From NCBI RefSeq assembly GCF_029265695.1, contig NZ_JAJUHW010000031.1:1-34295 (forward strand): a DNA stretch of 34,295 nucleotides. The letters run 5' to 3'. Shown here one piece after another: positions 22,602 through 30,092 of the stretch (its first letter is position 1; every line of letters begins with the position of its first letter). Under the pieces are notes generated by a model. The model was not told the origin of the DNA and did not search any database. It worked only from the letters and a program-made list of their open reading frames with translations. Source of the DNA: Gracilinema caldarium. GTDB taxonomy: Bacteria; Spirochaetota; Spirochaetia; Treponematales; Breznakiellaceae. A program made the translations under genes and the position numbers.

Positions 22602-22626
22602 TATTTTGAAGACTGGAGGTTCTATT

Positions 22627-23637
22627 ATGAAGACCGAATACGAAGAGCGGGAAGCGCCCCATACCAGCGGAATGGCGGTGCTTATCATAAACAGTTTATT
22701 GATATTGGCAGCAATCGGCGGTTTTATTTTTGCAGCAATCCAGATGGACCGGGGGCCAAACATCCAGAATATCTTGCTCATGGTCATCACCGGTTTGTAT
22801 GGCTTTATTGTAGGGCCGATCTTATATGTGGGTCTCAAGGTTCTTAAACCGAATGAGGCCCTCGTATTAACCCTGTTCGGAACCTATTGCGGAACATTGA
22901 AAGGTCCGGGCTTTTTCTTTGTTAATCCCTTTGTAAGTCCCGTAGCCCCAAGCAGCCAGGAGCCTTCAACTGGCTCTGTCGGCGGTGAAAAACAGCAGGT
23001 AAAATTGGGAAACATTTCGATTCCGGCCGCTGAAAACAAACAGACCAACAAGAAAATTTCCTTAAAGGTCCTGACGCTTAACAACGAAAAGCAGAAAATA
23101 AATGACGCTTTAGGGAATCCCATTATCATTGGCATTGTGGTGGTGTGGAAAGTGGTTAACACCGCCAAGGCGGTCTTTAATGTGGATAACTACACTGAGT
23201 TTCTCTCAATCCAGTGTGATTCGGCCCTGCGGAACATAGTCCGGCTCTATCCTTATGACTCAAGCGACGAAGAAAAAGAAAAATCCCTGCGGGGCAGCAG
23301 TCAGGAACTGGCAGAGCAGCTCAAAGAAGAAATTCAGTCGAAGGTTGCCATAGCAGGCTTGGAAATCATCGAAGCCCGAATTACCCATCTTTCCTATGCC
23401 CCGGAAATTGCCACGGCCATGCTGCAGAAACAACAGGCTACCGCCGTTGTCGCAGCCCGGCAGCTCATTGTTGAGGGTGCCGTCGGTATGGTAGAAATGG
23501 CCCTGGAAAAACTCAGCACCAACAATATCGTTGACCTTGATGAGGAACGGAAGGCTGCCATGGTAAGCAACCTGCTCGTAGTCCTCTGCGGCAACCGGGA
23601 CGTGCAGCCGGTGGTCAATTCTGGAACGATTTATTAA
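22627..23637 (+). CDS. SPFH/band-7 domain membrane protein
   Basis: A 336-residue protein with two membrane segments (about residues 16-40 and 47-72). These are followed by an SPFH/prohibitin domain (about 75-310), with the conserved PNEALVLTLFG and GPGFFFVNPF entry and the EARITHLSYAPEIATAMLQKQQA signature. SPFH proteins form large membrane-associated assemblies that organise membrane microdomains or restrain proteases. There is no long flotillin coiled coil. The ATG at 22627 is chosen because GGAGG lies 7 bases upstream; an in-frame ATG at 22606 lies before the Shine-Dalgarno. A promoter at 22550-22578 precedes it, and the small RHH gene follows 27 bases after its stop. Confidence 0.92.
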   Translation: MKTEYEEREAPHTSGMAVLIINSLLILAAIGGFIFAAIQMDRGPNIQNILLMVITGLYGFIVGPILYVGLKVLKPNEALVLTLFGTYCGTLKGPGFFFVNPFVSPVAPSSQEPSTGSVGGEKQQVKLGNISIPAAENKQTNKKISLKVLTLNNEKQKINDALGNPIIIGIVVVWKVVNTAKAVFNVDNYTEFLSIQCDSALRNIVRLYPYDSSDEEKEKSLRGSSQELAEQLKEEIQSKVAIAGLEIIEARITHLSYAPEIATAMLQKQQATAVVAARQLIVEGAVGMVEMALEKLSTNNIVDLDEERKAAMVSNLLVVLCGNRDVQPVVNSGTIY

Positions 23638-23664
23638 CCAGAGTAAGCTTGCGGAGAAGATTCT

Positions 23665-23871
23665 ATGGATCAATCGGAAAACAATAGCAATGACAAGAAA
23701 AAGCAGATAATCCTCAGAATTTCTCCCAAGCTATGGAACGAACTTGCCGCATGGGCAGAGGACGATTTTCGCTCTATTAACGGGCAGATAGAATACCTGC
23801 TGACCGAATGCGTGCGGCAGCGGCGAGGGAAAAAACTGGAAAAGAACGATCCAGAGGATTCTGGAGAATAG
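23665..23871 (+). CDS. Small Arc-type ribbon-helix-helix protein
   Basis: A 68-residue protein. Residues about 13-45 match an Arc/MetJ-type ribbon-helix-helix: a strand KQIILRIS, then helix PKLWNELAAWAEDD, the turn FRSINGQ and helix IEYLLTECVRQR. Charged tails flank this core. Such proteins bind DNA as dimers through the paired strands. No toxin gene follows, and the partner is the SPFH gene 27 bases upstream, so I do not read it as an antitoxin. It may autoregulate the operon through the repeats at 22541-22601, or act by protein contact. A GGAGAAG precedes the ATG by about 7 bases. Confidence 0.8.
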   Translation: MDQSENNSNDKKKQIILRISPKLWNELAAWAEDDFRSINGQIEYLLTECVRQRRGKKLEKNDPEDSGE

Positions 23872-23991: not shown

Positions 23992-24729
23992 ATGGCAATT
24001 ATTGAACTGCAGGACGTAAAGAAAACCTATCCACTGGGCAAGGTGCAGGTGGAAGCCGTAAAGGGTGTTTCGTTCTGTATTGAACGGGGAGACTTCATCT
24101 CTATCGCCGGTCCATCCGGGTCCGGTAAGACAACCATTCTTAATATGATCGGCCTTATCGACACGCCGACTTCAGGAGAAGTTTTTATAGAAGGCCAGCC
24201 CATTTCAGGCTTAAACGACCGGCAACTTACAACGCTCCGGCATGATACTATAGGTTTTATTTTCCAGTCCTTCAACCTTATTCCTGTATTGAATGTCTAT
24301 GAAAACATAGAATTCCCCCTGCTGCTCGGGAAAACCGCCATGAGCAAGCAAGAACGGGACGATTGGATAAAATACCTCATCAACGAAGTGGGGCTTTCCG
24401 ATTGGATCCGCCATAAACCCAACGAACTTTCCGGAGGCCAGCGGCAGCGGGTAGCTATAGCCCGGGCCTTGGTGACTAAGCCAAAGATTGTTCTGGCCGA
24501 CGAACCAACTGCCAACCTGGACTCAGCCACGGGGGAACAGATTATCGAATTGATGAAAAAGATTAACCGTGAACTGGACACAACTTTTATATTCTCCACC
24601 CACGATGCAAAAATTGTTGATATAGCCGACCATGTAATTCGGCTCAGGGACGGCCTTGTGACAGAGAACTACCGGAAAGACAGGACCCCAGCCTGCGGCG
24701 AACCTGCGGCGGCCGAAGCACGGAGCTAA
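23992..24729 (+). CDS. ABC transporter ATP-binding protein, LolD/MacB type
   Basis: A 245-residue cytoplasmic ATPase. Walker A is GPSGSGKT (residues 40-47), the Q-loop lies in FIFQSFNL, the signature LSGGQRQRVAIARAL is near 143-157, Walker B is IVLADEPT near 165-172, and the switch His is in STHD. Its close match to the LolD/MacB/FtsE branch fits the two FtsX-type permeases downstream. In that branch the ATPase drives a periplasmic pulling or extraction motion rather than substrate passage through a pore. A strong AGAGGAG Shine-Dalgarno precedes the ATG. The stop is 3 bases before the first permease. Confidence 0.95.
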   Translation: MAIIELQDVKKTYPLGKVQVEAVKGVSFCIERGDFISIAGPSGSGKTTILNMIGLIDTPTSGEVFIEGQPISGLNDRQLTTLRHDTIGFIFQSFNLIPVLNVYENIEFPLLLGKTAMSKQERDDWIKYLINEVGLSDWIRHKPNELSGGQRQRVAIARALVTKPKIVLADEPTANLDSATGEQIIELMKKINRELDTTFIFSTHDAKIVDIADHVIRLRDGLVTENYRKDRTPACGEPAAAEARS

Positions 24730-24732
24730 TAT

Positions 24733-26232
24733 ATGCCAGTCATACTGCGTATCGCTTTTCGCAATATATGGGAACACAGGGCTAAAAGCCTCATTATCGG
24801 TTCCTTTATTGCCCTGGGGGTAATCATCCTCCTGATTGGAAATTCCCTCTTAGACTCATCCAAACGGGGAGTCCAAAAGGGATTTATCGAAAATTTTACC
24901 GGCGATGTTATGATCTACGGTCCCTCTGCCACGGCGGTTTCCGTTTTTGGCGAGGGGGGCAGCGAAACCGGGGAGATACCGGTTATCCCCGATTTTGACA
25001 AAGTCCAGGCACACTTAGCCACCCTATCGGATGTAAAATCCTCGGCAAGTATGTCCGTAGCTTACGGGCTCCTTACCCTGGATGCGGCGGAGGAGATCCA
25101 GGACGTAGTCAGCTCAGAAGAAGAGCCAACAGGACCTCCCATCACTATCGTATTTGGCGTAGATGGAGACCGGTATTTTTCCATGTTTCCTTCTATAGAA
25201 TTGGAAGAAGGCTCATACCTCAAACCAGGCGAACCGGGCATAATGCTCACCCGGGGTCAAATCGAAAAACTGGAAAAGCGGTTCAAAAAACAAGTCCATG
25301 TGGGAGACAAGGTACTTGTCACCGGATTCGGCACCCAAAACTTTAAAATACGAGAGCTTCCGGTTAAAGGAATCTATAAACGGAGCCTTTCAAGCAGCCT
25401 GCCGGACTTTATGTCCTTTGCGGACATTGATACCGCCCGGGTACTGGGGGGCCTTACCGTAGGCGCGAACGAAGCAAGCCAGATCTCAGACACCGAAAAA
25501 CAGCTTTTGTCGATTGGCAACACCGATGACCTTTTCTCCGATGACATGGTGGATTCTGTCCAGACCAGCACGGTAAATCTGGATGCCATAGCACAGAGCC
25601 TGTCCAGTTCCGCCGAACGGGAACGGCTCAATCAGGCTGACACGGGAGCCTGGCACTTTATCCTGATCCGGCTGAACCATCCAGCCTTAGCGGGCCTATT
25701 TATCCAGGACTTGAATAAGTGGTTTGCCGCTGAAGGTATCGATGCCCATGCGACAAACTGGCAAGGAGCTGCGGGCACCTATGGCAAGTTTTCCGATATA
25801 GTCCGCATTGTCTTTATCATCGCCATACTCCTCGTTTCCGTGGTAGCAGTCATCATTATGATGAATACCCTGGTGATTTCGGTCATTGAACGGACCAGTG
25901 AAATCGGCACGATGCGTGCCCTGGGGGCTCATCGGAAAACAATTAAACGGCTTTTCCTGGCCGAAACCCTTTCACTCACCGCCGTTTTCGGTCTTATCGG
26001 CGCCGTTCTTTCCATGATTATCGTAGCCGTTTTAAATGCCCTCCATATCAGCGCGGGGGACAACGGCCTCTTGGTCATGCTTTTTGGCGGCGATGTATTG
26101 CACTTAAGCCCGGCGCTCCCATCATTCGTGTCCTCGGTGATACTGGTCTTTATCGTCGGATACCTGGCACACCTGTACCCCGTATCCCTAGCCCTGAAGA
26201 TCCAGCCGGTTAAAGCCATCCAGGCAGACTAG
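24733..26232 (+). CDS. FtsX/LolE-type ABC permease 1
   Basis: A 499-residue membrane protein with the LolC/E-MacB layout. It has one N-terminal membrane helix (about 18-38), then a large periplasmic MacB-like core domain (about 40-350), and three C-terminal helices forming the FtsX domain (about 355-380, 405-435, 462-487). The cytoplasmic coupling loop ERTSEIGTMRALGAHRKTI is the family signature. The periplasmic part carries a long acidic Ser/Asp-rich insertion. The GGAG at the end of the ATPase gene acts as its Shine-Dalgarno, so the genes are coupled. It pairs with the next permease to make a heterodimer, as LolC does with LolE. Confidence 0.93.
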   Translation: MPVILRIAFRNIWEHRAKSLIIGSFIALGVIILLIGNSLLDSSKRGVQKGFIENFTGDVMIYGPSATAVSVFGEGGSETGEIPVIPDFDKVQAHLATLSDVKSSASMSVAYGLLTLDAAEEIQDVVSSEEEPTGPPITIVFGVDGDRYFSMFPSIELEEGSYLKPGEPGIMLTRGQIEKLEKRFKKQVHVGDKVLVTGFGTQNFKIRELPVKGIYKRSLSSSLPDFMSFADIDTARVLGGLTVGANEASQISDTEKQLLSIGNTDDLFSDDMVDSVQTSTVNLDAIAQSLSSSAERERLNQADTGAWHFILIRLNHPALAGLFIQDLNKWFAAEGIDAHATNWQGAAGTYGKFSDIVRIVFIIAILLVSVVAVIIMMNTLVISVIERTSEIGTMRALGAHRKTIKRLFLAETLSLTAVFGLIGAVLSMIIVAVLNALHISAGDNGLLVMLFGGDVLHLSPALPSFVSSVILVFIVGYLAHLYPVSLALKIQPVKAIQAD

Positions 26233-26241
26233 GAGTAAAAA

Positions 26242-27573
26242 ATGAACAGCCTTATTTTAATGGCCTTTAGAAACTTAAGCCGCCAGAAACGGCGGAGCTT
26301 CCTTTTAGGCGGGGCCATCGCCTTTGGTATTATGATAGTAACGGTCATTACGAGCCTCGCCGGAGGACTCGTCGGCAACGTAGCAGCCAACATAGCCCAC
26401 CTCTTTGCGGGGCATGTCTTTATCGAAGGGGTCGAAAAATCCCCCAGCGGTAAAAATCTGGAAATTATCCGTGACGACAAGCTGATAAACGAGACTTTAC
26501 AGGCAGCGGGGCTTGGAGATGCGTACATCCAGAAACGGTCCGGAGCCGCCGTGACCCTTATTTTTGAAGGGAAAAAAGTCCAACAGTCCATTATTGGTGT
26601 GGATTTCGAAAAAGAACGGCTCCTGCGGGAACGGGTAACCTTTATAAGAGGTGGATTTGAGCAAGTTACCACACCCAATGCGCTATTTGTAAGCGAACAG
26701 GTTGCGCAAAGACTCAAAATTGATGTGGGGGACCGGCTCCTTGCCCAAACCAAGACCGTGACGGGCCAGTTCAACGTAGGTGAATTCCGGGTAGCGGGCA
26801 TTATGCCCAGCATGGGCCTTTTTGATCAAATGCTCGCCTATACCCCCAAGGCATACCTGAACAGTCTTATCGGCCTCGGGACCGACGAATACCAGTCTCT
26901 GGGCATTATGCTCTCAGACCTCACTAAATCAGACAAGGTAGCGGAGACCGTAAAAGCAGCCCTTAAGGCCCGGGCTCCCGTATTCGAGCTTGCCCCGGGC
27001 ACCCTGACAAGCGCAAGCAATCCCGGCCAGTCCCGGTATCAAAAGCTTGCCCAGCTCGCCCGCAAAGAAACCTGGGAAGGCACCAAGTACCGGGTCTATA
27101 CCATCAACGATACGATTTCCCAGATCGAACAGGTAGTACAAATCCTTAATACGGTAAGTACGGTCATCCTAGTGGTTCTTTTTGTTATCATTCTTGTGGG
27201 CATACTCAATACCTTTAGGATCATCATTTACGAACGGACCAAGGAAATCGGTACCATGCGGGCCCTGGGACTGCAGCGCCCGGACGTACGAAACCTCTTT
27301 ATTTTGGAAGCAGCCTTTCTGGCCCTGGGAGGTGTCCTTGCGGGTTTCGCGGCCGCAGGAATTGTGATGCTCCTCCTTTCATTCATCAATTTTGGAACCG
27401 GGACCTTCTTTGCCCTCTTTATGAAGAACGGCCACCTTTCATTTATACCCCAGATCTCCCAGTCATCACTGCATGTCATCTTAGTAGTACTGCTTACGGT
27501 CCTTGCAGCATTTCTGCCTGCCCGGCGGGCCGCAAAATTGGAACCCGCCGACGCCCTGCGGAGCAGCAAATGA
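26242..27573 (+). CDS. FtsX/LolE-type ABC permease 2
   Basis: A 443-residue permease of the same type as its upstream neighbour. It has an N-terminal helix (about 18-42), a periplasmic core (about 45-290) and a three-helix FtsX domain with the coupling motif ERTKEIGTMRALGLQRPDV. It ends in PADALRSSK, a normal FtsX end. The GGAG Shine-Dalgarno is 6 bases before the ATG, 9 bases after permease 1. It is shorter than permease 1 in the periplasmic domain, which suggests a division of roles as in LolC and LolE, only one of which contacts the carrier protein. Which of the two does so here is not visible. Confidence 0.93.
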   Translation: MNSLILMAFRNLSRQKRRSFLLGGAIAFGIMIVTVITSLAGGLVGNVAANIAHLFAGHVFIEGVEKSPSGKNLEIIRDDKLINETLQAAGLGDAYIQKRSGAAVTLIFEGKKVQQSIIGVDFEKERLLRERVTFIRGGFEQVTTPNALFVSEQVAQRLKIDVGDRLLAQTKTVTGQFNVGEFRVAGIMPSMGLFDQMLAYTPKAYLNSLIGLGTDEYQSLGIMLSDLTKSDKVAETVKAALKARAPVFELAPGTLTSASNPGQSRYQKLAQLARKETWEGTKYRVYTINDTISQIEQVVQILNTVSTVILVVLFVIILVGILNTFRIIIYERTKEIGTMRALGLQRPDVRNLFILEAAFLALGGVLAGFAAAGIVMLLLSFINFGTGTFFALFMKNGHLSFIPQISQSSLHVILVVLLTVLAAFLPARRAAKLEPADALRSSK

Positions 27574-27605
27574 GAATGAATCAAGAATACACACAGGAGT
27601 TTTAT

Positions 27606-28424
27606 ATGAGCCAGAACAGACCAAGTCTCCCAATAGAGCCCGCTAAGATTGCGCCAGCCTTCAGAACCGCAATCATGGGTATCGCTGCGGCCCTTATGTT
27701 TTTCGCAGCCCCTCAAGGGGCCCTCTTTGCCCAAACCCAGCCGGATGTAAAGGCAATCCTTGCAAAACTGGATGCCATGAACGATTTCTCCGGCCTTGAT
27801 TTTACCGGAGTCTTTACCATCGTGTCGGAAAAACCGGGTGAAAAGGCTGCCCTTACTCAGATCAGAATGTTCCGCCGGGATTCCAAGAACCAGTTCACCC
27901 TGCTCATTCAGCAGCCCGAGGCCAGCAAGGGGCAGGGTTACTTAAAAGAAGGGGACAACGTTTGGTTCTACGATCCCTCGAGCCGCAAATTCACCCATTC
28001 GAGCCTTAAAGAAAACCTGAACAATTCGGACGCCAAAAACTCCGACTTTAGCCGCCGCACCATCCTGGATGATTACGATGTCAGCGGAACCGAAGAGGGT
28101 ATGCTTGGCAAGTTCCCCGTCTGGATTATCAACCTCAAAGCAAAAAACGACAAGGTTTCCTACGATGTGAGTAAACTCTTTGTCCGCAAGGACGGGAATC
28201 TGCTCCTTAAACAGGAAGACTATTCAGTTTCGGGCAAAAAAATGCGCACCACCCTGTATCCCAAGTATGCGGACCTGGGAAACGGCAAAATGTTCCCCTC
28301 CCAGATGCTTATCGTGGACGAGTTAAATCCGGGCGAAAAGAGCCAAATCACCATGACCGAGCTTTCCACCAGCAAGCTTCCTGACAAGGTCTTTACCAAG
28401 GCTTTCCTGGAACAGGTCAATTAG
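27606..28424 (+). CDS. LolA-like outer-membrane lipoprotein-sorting (carrier) protein
   Basis: A 272-residue periplasmic protein with a signal peptide (hydrophobic TAIMGIAAALMFFAAP, cleavage after ALFA near residue 42). The mature part (about 45-270) has the LolA-like unclosed-barrel pattern of the family named outer membrane lipoprotein-sorting protein: repeated long strands such as GQGYLKEGDNVWFYDPSSRKF and the closing TELSTSKLPDKVFTKAFLE. It is expected to ferry a hydrophobic group through the periplasm. The start at 27606 is preferred because AGGAG lies 6 bases before it. An ATG at 27570 overlaps the permease stop but lacks a ribosome site and gives a poor signal peptide. Confidence 0.87.
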   Translation: MSQNRPSLPIEPAKIAPAFRTAIMGIAAALMFFAAPQGALFAQTQPDVKAILAKLDAMNDFSGLDFTGVFTIVSEKPGEKAALTQIRMFRRDSKNQFTLLIQQPEASKGQGYLKEGDNVWFYDPSSRKFTHSSLKENLNNSDAKNSDFSRRTILDDYDVSGTEEGMLGKFPVWIINLKAKNDKVSYDVSKLFVRKDGNLLLKQEDYSVSGKKMRTTLYPKYADLGNGKMFPSQMLIVDELNPGEKSQITMTELSTSKLPDKVFTKAFLEQVN

Positions 28425-28438
28425 GGAGGGCCAGGTTG

Positions 28439-30025
28439 ATGAATATATCGCGCCATTTTCATGCTTTTTCCCTTTCAGTTCTCGGCTTCCTTTTCGTGTT
28501 TGGGCCCGGCGCCGGCCCGGAGATGCTGTCAGCCCAAACGAGCACCATCATCACCGATGAGGACGCCCTCTTTGGCGATGCTGCCCCGGACACCCTGGCT
28601 CCGGGTCCGGCGCCGGCGGCCGGCGCCGCCGATGCGGCCCAATCCTCCGCGGGCGTCGTGAGTGCCGCCAGCGCTAGCAGCGCAAGCAGCGCTGGAGCCG
28701 CGTCCAGCTCCAGCGCGGTCTCGGCCTTCCTTACCAGGGATCAGGTCCGCATCGGCGGCAGCTTTACCGGTAAGCTCGGCACGAGCTTTACCTGGACCAA
28801 TCCCTGGGAGGGCAACCGGGATCCCCTGAACCCGGACAAGTCGACCCTGGATCCCGCAATCGCCTCTACCCTCTTTTTCGATGCCCGCCCCCAGGAGGAC
28901 CTGCGCTTCTACGGCAGCATCAAGACTGCCTGGCCCTTTACCAATTCAGCTACATTCCTAACAGACGCAACCTATGTAGAGCTGCCTTCACCTTCGGTTA
29001 CAACAAAATCAGCCAGTTTTTCGACGGTTAACCTCCAGGTTTTCGAACTCTTTACAGACTTTTCCTGGAACGATGCGGCCTACTTCCGTTTCGGAAAACA
29101 CACCGTAAAATGGGGCGTAGGCTATTTCTTTAGCCCCGCAGATGTCCTCAATCTTACTTCTATTGATGTTACGAATCCCACGGCCCAGCGGGAAGGACCT
29201 ATAAGTCTCAGGGCACTCCTCCCGATCCCCGGAAGCCAGAACAATCTCTGGGGCTACCTGCTCCTTCCAGGCGCTTTACCCTCGGGAAGCACCAGCGGCG
29301 AAACAGAAGCCTTTAAACCCCAGGATCTTGCCTATGCTGGCAAGGGAGAATTTCTTCTCGGCAACTGGGAGATCGGCCTCGGCGCTTATTATAAAAATGA
29401 TAAGGCGCCCCGGCTTATAACAACCGCCACCGGGTCCCTGGGCCGCTTTGACCTCTTTGCCGAGGCCGTCGCAAGCTGGGGAAACGACCGGCAGTATGTG
29501 ACGAGCTTAACTCCAACACCGGCCTTTGAAAGCCGGGATGACCGCTGGTATTTCCAGGGCACCGCAGGCTTTCTCTACACCGCCCGGGACGGCTACACCA
29601 GCATCGCCGCCCAATATTATTTTAACGGCGAAGGCTACAGCTATGAAGAGCGGGAAAATCTTATTAATCAGTATACTGCCCTCCCCCAAACGTTGCAGGA
29701 TAGCCTTGCTCCGGTTCTTGGGGGACTTCTTTATGGCGCAAGCCAGCACTATGGAGCCCTCTCGATATCCCGATCAGAGCTTTTTATAAAAGACGTAAGT
29801 GCTTCGATCCTTGTTATGGCAAACCTGGCGGACCTTTCGGGCTTTATTACCCCCAGCCTTAACTACAAGGTTTTCAAGTATATGAACCTTTCCCTGTCTC
29901 CCACCTTTGTATGGTACATCGATGCACTGTGGGGCACGGGTAAAAACAGCGAATACATCCTAGTAAACAAGGGCCCTGCCCTTACCATCAGCCTCAGCGC
30001 GGCCCTGGGCTCCGGCAGGTTCTAA
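28439..30025 (+). CDS. Predicted outer-membrane beta-barrel protein of the ABC operon
   Basis: A 528-residue protein with a signal peptide (about 1-33, ending LSAQ). An Ala/Ser/Pro-rich low-complexity linker follows (about 45-95), then a long run of amphipathic strands ending in GSGRF, the terminal-Phe signal of outer-membrane barrels. RFGKHTVKWGVGYFFSPADV near 220 recalls the GRQxxxWGxxxxxP motif of DUF1302-type barrels. The start at 28439 follows GGAGGG by 8 bases; a TTG immediately upstream is an alternative. It is the last gene of the operon, so it probably receives or inserts what the LolA-like carrier brings. Function is inferred from position and fold only. Confidence 0.8.
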   Translation: MNISRHFHAFSLSVLGFLFVFGPGAGPEMLSAQTSTIITDEDALFGDAAPDTLAPGPAPAAGAADAAQSSAGVVSAASASSASSAGAASSSSAVSAFLTRDQVRIGGSFTGKLGTSFTWTNPWEGNRDPLNPDKSTLDPAIASTLFFDARPQEDLRFYGSIKTAWPFTNSATFLTDATYVELPSPSVTTKSASFSTVNLQVFELFTDFSWNDAAYFRFGKHTVKWGVGYFFSPADVLNLTSIDVTNPTAQREGPISLRALLPIPGSQNNLWGYLLLPGALPSGSTSGETEAFKPQDLAYAGKGEFLLGNWEIGLGAYYKNDKAPRLITTATGSLGRFDLFAEAVASWGNDRQYVTSLTPTPAFESRDDRWYFQGTAGFLYTARDGYTSIAAQYYFNGEGYSYEERENLINQYTALPQTLQDSLAPVLGGLLYGASQHYGALSISRSELFIKDVSASILVMANLADLSGFITPSLNYKVFKYMNLSLSPTFVWYIDALWGTGKNSEYILVNKGPALTISLSAALGSGRF

Positions 30026-30055: not shown

Positions 30056-30092
30056 GCGGCTCCCCGGCATCCGGGGAGCCGCTGTTTTTTTT
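30056..30092 (+). terminator. Strong intrinsic terminator of the ABC operon
   Basis: A perfect 12-base GC-rich stem (30056-30067 pairing with 30071-30082) with a CAT loop is followed by eight consecutive T (30085-30092). It lies 30 bases after the barrel gene stop and faces the convergent lipoprotein gene. Confidence 0.95.

Follow-up and report, generated by a model that had tools for sequence, protein, structure and literature searches.

A Lol-like operon of the spirochaete Gracilinema caldarium with a short peptide common to a permease loop and the tail of its predicted outer-membrane barrel

How does a periplasmic lipid carrier, outside the Lol system of Escherichia coli, distinguish the site at which it is loaded from the site at which it is unloaded, and how do several paralogous carriers in one cell avoid crossed wires? 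Spirochaetes such as Borrelia possess rich lipoprotein coats, and few machines for delivery to their outer membrane are known. Both questions are touched by a five-gene operon (positions 23992-30025, + strand) within a 34,295-nucleotide stretch of Gracilinema caldarium DNA (contig NZ_JAJUHW010000031.1; hereafter the window, meaning the whole stretch analysed), which encodes head to tail and with tight spacing an ATP-binding cassette (ABC) ATPase, two permeases of FtsX type, a carrier with a LolA fold and a predicted outer-membrane β-barrel. What is new here is that one peptide, [D/E]xLF[G/S], occurs both in the periplasmic loop of permease 1 (DDLFSDD) and in the disordered N-terminal tail of the barrel (DEDALFGD). 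We lean towards the view that the operon is an accessory Lol-like trans-envelope shuttle, the carrier of which is drawn to both stations by this common peptide. Its features are as follows.

23992-24729, + strand: ABC-transporter ATPase, LolD/MacB-type, 245 residues (Pfam ABC_tran PF00005, 4.6e-35; best NCBIfam match LolD TIGR02211)
24733-26232, + strand: permease 1, FtsX/LolE-like, 499 residues (FtsX PF02687, 3.4e-16; PDB profile matches to MacB and LolE; hydropathy)
25525-25545, + strand: motif DDLFSDD, residues 265-271 of permease 1, periplasmic loop (in a gap-rich stretch where F268 is invariant among 21 relatives)
26242-27573, + strand: permease 2, FtsX/LolF-like with MacB-type periplasmic core, 443 residues, without the motif (PF02687, 2.2e-17; MacB_PCD PF12704, 1.4e-9)
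27606-28424, + strand: LolA-fold periplasmic carrier, 272 residues, signal peptide (...LFA-QTQ) (PF17131, 4.7e-39)
28439-30025, + strand: predicted outer-membrane β-barrel, 528 residues, signal peptide, disordered N-terminal tail to about residue 93, C-terminal phenylalanine (AlphaFold2)
28556-28579, + strand: motif DEDALFGD, residues 40-47 of the barrel, N-terminal tail (across 50 barrels F45 is invariant and L44 and G46 almost invariant)
30056-30092, + strand: intrinsic terminator closing the operon (12-bp stem with 11 GC pairs, then TGTTTTTTTT)

A purine-rich sequence resembling a ribosome site lies upstream of every one of the five starts, and the initial annotation's tight gene succession, ribosome sites and strong terminator are thus all borne out. 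To judge from the sequence, the carrier most likely starts with the ATG at 27606, after AGGAG, and less likely within the longer frame from 27570; the reference used in the family searches was nine bases longer 5' of 27606, in frame, which left the searches unaffected. For the barrel the start is the ATG at 28439, the alternative being a TTG at 28436.

The shared peptide was counted as [D/E]x(1-2)[L/M/F]F[G/S/A/N/D] across 80 non-redundant loci. It is present in the permease-1 loop at 78 of these, in the barrel tail at 75 and in both at 74, whereas composition-preserving shuffles place it in both proteins at a mean of 3.1 loci (maximum 9); permease 2 carries it at nine loci and the carrier at one. 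A stricter core gives 111 copies in permease-1 loops and 149 in barrel tails (4.2 and 4.0, respectively, after shuffling), and hardly occurs in the carrier (1), in the barrel body (4) or in permease 2 (9). All of the 21 permease-1 and 50 barrel sequences compared keep the motif phenylalanine, while the surrounding stretches, strongly acidic on both sides (mean net charge -11 and -12), vary and gain or lose residues. Several barrel tails carry tandem copies, with up to about five LF cores; about five DDDLF/DDDMFG copies in two of them (L123:9805-11385 and L125:7429-8913) suggest multivalent capture. In some clades the likeness of cognate loop and tail extends beyond the core, with SDDDLFGAPETV on both sides at L038, and permutation of partners within coarse clades indicates an excess of cognate pairs (p 0.0025-0.0035); for permutation between clades the p values range from 0.08 to 0.0002. 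A more permissive motif score was dropped because the controls passed as well, and the strict pattern was kept; a pattern search of the genome's DNA, too strict in that it missed permease 1, matched the window barrel alone. A literature search that excluded subscription journals and preprints returned no description of a peptide common to a transporter and a barrel.

A shared peptide, of other sequence, also occurs with a different energiser. Many carriers of the family PF17131 adjoin a large protein of the resistance-nodulation-division (RND) type, assigned here by size, sequence and position, often together with a barrel, an arrangement that is that of AmeABCD (PMC6394551). At loci with a long RND protein the barrel-tail peptide reappears, mostly in a periplasmic RND loop at about residues 500-620, the RND/barrel pairs being SFFDD/SFFDD, FGFGDD/FGFGDD, DDWGS/DDWGS, PPLGFD/PPLGFE and SFFEE/SFFEE. 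Loop and tail match at p<=0.05 in 10 of 22 long-RND loci and, for a control region, in 3 of 22, a test that is partly post hoc since the loop region was picked after the first examples; by the same test none of 12 loci pairing a short RND-like protein (765-840 residues) with a carrier has a shared peptide. Because RND and FtsX proteins are unrelated, this recurrence speaks for a functional reason. A 1.14-Mb genome of Treponema pallidum size, G056, which bears the same genus label as genome G312 (see below), retains only a pair of RND-type protein and carrier without an adjoining barrel (L050) and contains no orthologue of the window operon's carrier or permease 1.

Being the only product besides the barrel that is common to the ABC and RND arrangements, the carrier is the candidate reader of the peptide. 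We modelled with AlphaFold2 a read-through construct of a relative, L095, in which the carrier continues into the barrel tail with the stop codon rendered as glycine. Within the appended stretch only residues 269-276 (SDIDALFG) exceed a predicted local distance difference test score (pLDDT) of 50, as a short helix, and the signal peptide and the remaining tail stay low; in the model of the window barrel alone the whole tail is below 50. The comparison hints that the motif may dock on the carrier, at donor and acceptor alike. From the gene set, folds, conservation and motif computed here we infer an outward direction of transport, as follows. The cargo, hydrophobic in nature (lipid, glycolipid or lipoprotein), would be extracted from the inner membrane's outer leaflet by the ATPase and the two permeases at the expense of ATP and handed to the carrier, which would be held near permease 1 by one or more copies of the peptide in the loop. 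The loaded carrier would then diffuse across the periplasm, be captured by the same peptide, again in one or more copies, on the barrel tail, and unload at the barrel, which would insert the cargo or pass it on. It is tempting to generalize this to matched-peptide docking, in which one linear motif on donor and acceptor changes in concert; such docking would have arisen with two energisers that are unrelated and would provide every paralogous carrier with an address of its own, and we consider the chances for and against this proposal evenly balanced. If true, the donor-acceptor peptide would constitute a simple address code and a small inhibitor target, and orphan carriers and barrels could be assigned to their pumps from sequence.

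Taken singly, the inner-membrane and periplasmic components are akin to those of Lol, and by curated cut-offs the operon is not a Lol member. The ATPase scores 236.7 bits against the LolD equivalog TIGR02211 (cut-off 307.75), permeases 1 and 2 score 55.5 and 97.3 against the LolC/E equivalog TIGR02212 (cut-off 362.45, under which the genome's own Lol-like permeases on C37 likewise fall), and the carrier scores 17.1 and 16.8 against the LolA models PF03548 and TIGR00547 (cut-offs 23.6 and 112). Both permeases display the features of type VII ABC transporters, that is, a C-terminal FtsX domain and one large periplasmic domain past the first transmembrane segment, which in permease 1 lies between hydrophobic segments 15-43 and 349-388 according to hydropathy; the best PDB profile match of permease 2 is LolF (3.9e-22). 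The carrier belongs to the family LolA_like, PF17131 (134.4 bits; curated cut-off 30), and matches PDB entry 3buu by profile at 8.7e-36. Its fold, modelled from the L095 orthologue, is closest in the confident core to Porphyromonas gingivalis LolA3 (Z 18.3), a DUF1329 protein (18.2) and NE2245 (17.7), and more distant from LolA and LolB (Z about 9-10), so that the LolA fold anticipated for the carrier is supported.

The window barrel was likewise predicted as a barrel rather than a soluble protein (pLDDT 81; predicted template modelling score 0.77), with residues 21-93 as a disordered tail and the barrel itself spanning residues ~104 to 527. Its nearest solved folds are porin-like, namely OprD/Occ channels (OccK2), MOMP and AlgE (Z 17-19), and Omp85 does not figure among the fold matches listed; a sequence search revealed no relative among PDB structures. 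The signal peptide, read from the sequence, is not followed by a lipobox cysteine, and the receiver position is thus not taken by a LolB lipoprotein. The barrel matches no Pfam family. The initial annotation had read a DUF1302-like GKxxxxWG motif here: the motif is present as GKHTVKWG, with G219, W225 and G226 invariant in 50 barrels, and kinship with DUF1302 (PF06980) is weakly suggested by matches in 2 of 22 relatives' barrels (best E 0.0032), the window barrel itself having none up to E=1. Hence, of the Lol-like system with a barrel in the receiver place that had been proposed, the LolA fold and a conserved barrel stand, and the receiver role and the cargo are still presumed.

Conservation of the set is pronounced. 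When the window barrel was searched against 149 genomes of Treponematales, 77 had matches, and 35 of the 40 loci fetched show the five genes adjacent and in order; of the other five, contig ends truncate three, one has permease 2 and carrier fused, and one (G312) is a barrel alone. A survey with the carrier as query yielded 80 named loci (the best 80 of 211, nearly all spirochaete, with some genomes common to the first set), and in 75 of the 79 where the carrier is separable a same-family barrel comes after it. Of the four exceptions, two are at contig edges; among the apparent losses, L109 and L110, that in L110 was rejected, the barrel being found ~25 kb away in the same genome. The barrel is thus retained in nearly all homologous operons. 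The same gene order recurs though the proteins are only 30-50% identical, which argues that the operon is not a chance arrangement. The operon, described initially as self-contained, is so at most loci, and the barrel gene has moved away in two relatives: in G312 it lies 1.4 Mb from the other four genes, and in G317 the genes are split ~25 kb apart. Both pairs keep their motifs, SEDDLFSDD (permease 1) and LEDELFGGD (barrel) in G312, NPEQSLFDD and DFDTLFEEE in G317. Consistently with the anticipated loss together, G176, a genome of the same genus searched for each, lacks the barrel, the orthologous carrier and the permease-1 orthologue, as would fit joint loss. PF17131 is present in 118 of 149 sampled genomes across the phylum. 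The fused frame (696 residues; L018:2700-4790, identical to L093:2700-4790) carries the carrier's signal-peptide-like stretch after the last permease segment, and may represent a tether of natural origin or else result from faulty assembly of a single metagenome-assembled genome.

The genome of G. caldarium contains three PF17131 loci, the two beyond the window operon being, like the shared peptide and the RND-driven counterparts, absent from the initial annotation. The C86 set (L004:4045-9473) consists of ABC ATPase, two permeases, carrier and barrel without the shared peptide, and a gene for a probable TolC-like outer-membrane factor, assigned by eye, lies upstream (L004, 520-2172). The C73 set (L005:4243-9055) comprises two permeases, carrier and barrel without an ATPase, which it may borrow, and has its own variant of the shared peptide, IDDIFNSAQDIVN / IDELFSDTQDIIN. 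The genome further encodes a separate LolA (C22, over the PF03548 cut-off) and, at C37:99223-102483, a LolC-D-E-like set whose ATPase gene is flanked by those of permeases that match the LolC/E model better than the operon's do, and the window operon is hence accessory and not the cell's only Lol-like system.

Several observations weigh against an accessory shuttle addressed by a common peptide. Permutation of partners inside fine clades gives no cognate-pair excess, part of the loop-tail signal may reflect shared descent, and the motif counts are not independent, since the loci are related. The gain in pLDDT at the motif is modest (~55) and comes from a relative's read-through construct, the models compared being of different species. 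Most carriers, and the carriers on average (net -3.9), are mildly acidic, and simple charge attraction to the acidic motif is not supported. Some barrels with the same fold (OprD, MOMP) take up solutes. Finally, no recurrent cargo gene adjoins the operon in the neighbourhoods compared across loci; the recurrent neighbours, read by eye as flavodiiron-like, YchF-like GTPase, peptidyl-tRNA hydrolase-like and UvrA-like, look unrelated and were discarded as clues to the cargo.

How else might the locus be explained? The peptide could bind another partner, such as a folding chaperone or peptidoglycan, or mediate direct contact between loop and tail. SurA-like chaperones favour aromatic stretches, and the tandem LF cores recall self-associating FG repeats; a chaperone of outer-membrane proteins, however, leaves the copy in the permease loop unexplained, the acidity of both stretches is unfavourable to self-association, and in the model with the carrier the confidence rises at the motif. 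We regard this as possible and rather doubtful. That the motif is a mere by-product of acidic low-complexity linkers, as the disordered, D/E/S/T-rich character of both stretches might suggest, is very improbable given that shuffling yields 4 copies against 111-149 and 3 loci against 74, and given the invariant phenylalanine in both alignments.

Export of a small molecule or peptide in the manner of MacAB, with the barrel as exit or as an unrelated porin and the carrier as binding protein, would agree with the MacB_PCD match of permease 2, with the likeness of the barrel to solute porins and with the protection against monoterpenes conferred by the RND counterpart AmeABCD (PMC6394551). Pfam searches find no MacA-type adaptor and no TolC-type protein among the operon products, however, and the carrier has the fold of a lipid carrier, so that we deem this reading unlikely. 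Still less do we expect the operon to be the cell's ordinary Lol lipoprotein sorting with a divergent receiver: the ATPase finds its best NCBIfam match in LolD, the permeases match LolE and LolF and the carrier is folded like LolA, but ATPase, permeases and carrier all remain under the Lol equivalog cut-offs, the same genome holds LolA and LolC-D-E-like genes elsewhere, and G176 does without the set.

Although the initial annotation knew of no worked-out system of this composition, precedents exist, and in its composition the operon is a variation on systems already known. The Borrelia BBJ23-29 cluster, described computationally in 2026 (PMC13078400), likewise combines ABC ATPase, FtsX/MacB-type permease, LolA-like carrier and barrel in a spirochaete. 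It has, however, an Omp85-type barrel, a single permease gene proposed to form a homodimer, and two tetratricopeptide repeat (TPR) genes, whereas the window operon has two permeases, a barrel of predicted porin-like fold and the shared peptide, with no TPR gene among its five genes or the scanned flanking genes. No adjacent cluster is reported for the Treponema homologues of the BBJ23-29 barrel, and no LolB has been identified in Borrelia (PMC13078400). AmeABCD of Castellaniella defragrans (PMC6394551) joins a periplasmic protein of the LolA superfamily (DUF1329), a DUF1302 outer-membrane protein and an inner-membrane energiser in one cassette; its energiser is an RND protein of the HAE3 family rather than ABC plus FtsX, it includes an additional periplasmic protein, AmeC, and it serves monoterpene tolerance. 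The spirochaete RND-carrier-barrel sets resemble it more directly than the window operon does.

With LolABCDE the operon shares the ATPase, two FtsX-type permeases and LolA-fold carrier, and differs in its barrel receiver instead of LolB, in its scores below the cut-offs and in the presence of a separate Lol locus in the genome. In E. coli LolA is recruited by the Hook, a periplasmic part of LolC that inserts into the LolA cavity (PMC10865981); the window operon would solve this problem in another way, with a linear peptide of which the acceptor bears a further copy. P. gingivalis LolA3 (PDB 9tp6), the closest carrier fold, tied with the DUF1329 protein and NE2245, is reported to bind LolB no more than very weakly, a separate function being presumed for it; the available portion of that report names no outer-membrane partner, unlike the operon's carrier with its adjoining barrel (PMC13103446).

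Two metagenome-assembled genomes labelled Bacillota (L112 and L115) contain a spirochaete-type operon, and a contig bearing the name of Smithella sp. SCADC encodes operon proteins near-identical to those of Rectinema subterraneum (L118 and L119), both cases probably being contamination or misassignment. Upstream of the window operon, positions 22606-23871 encode an SPFH/Band 7 membrane protein and a small ribbon-helix-helix-like protein, and a gene of similar size is found upstream of the operon only in the window's closest relatives (L007 and L008).

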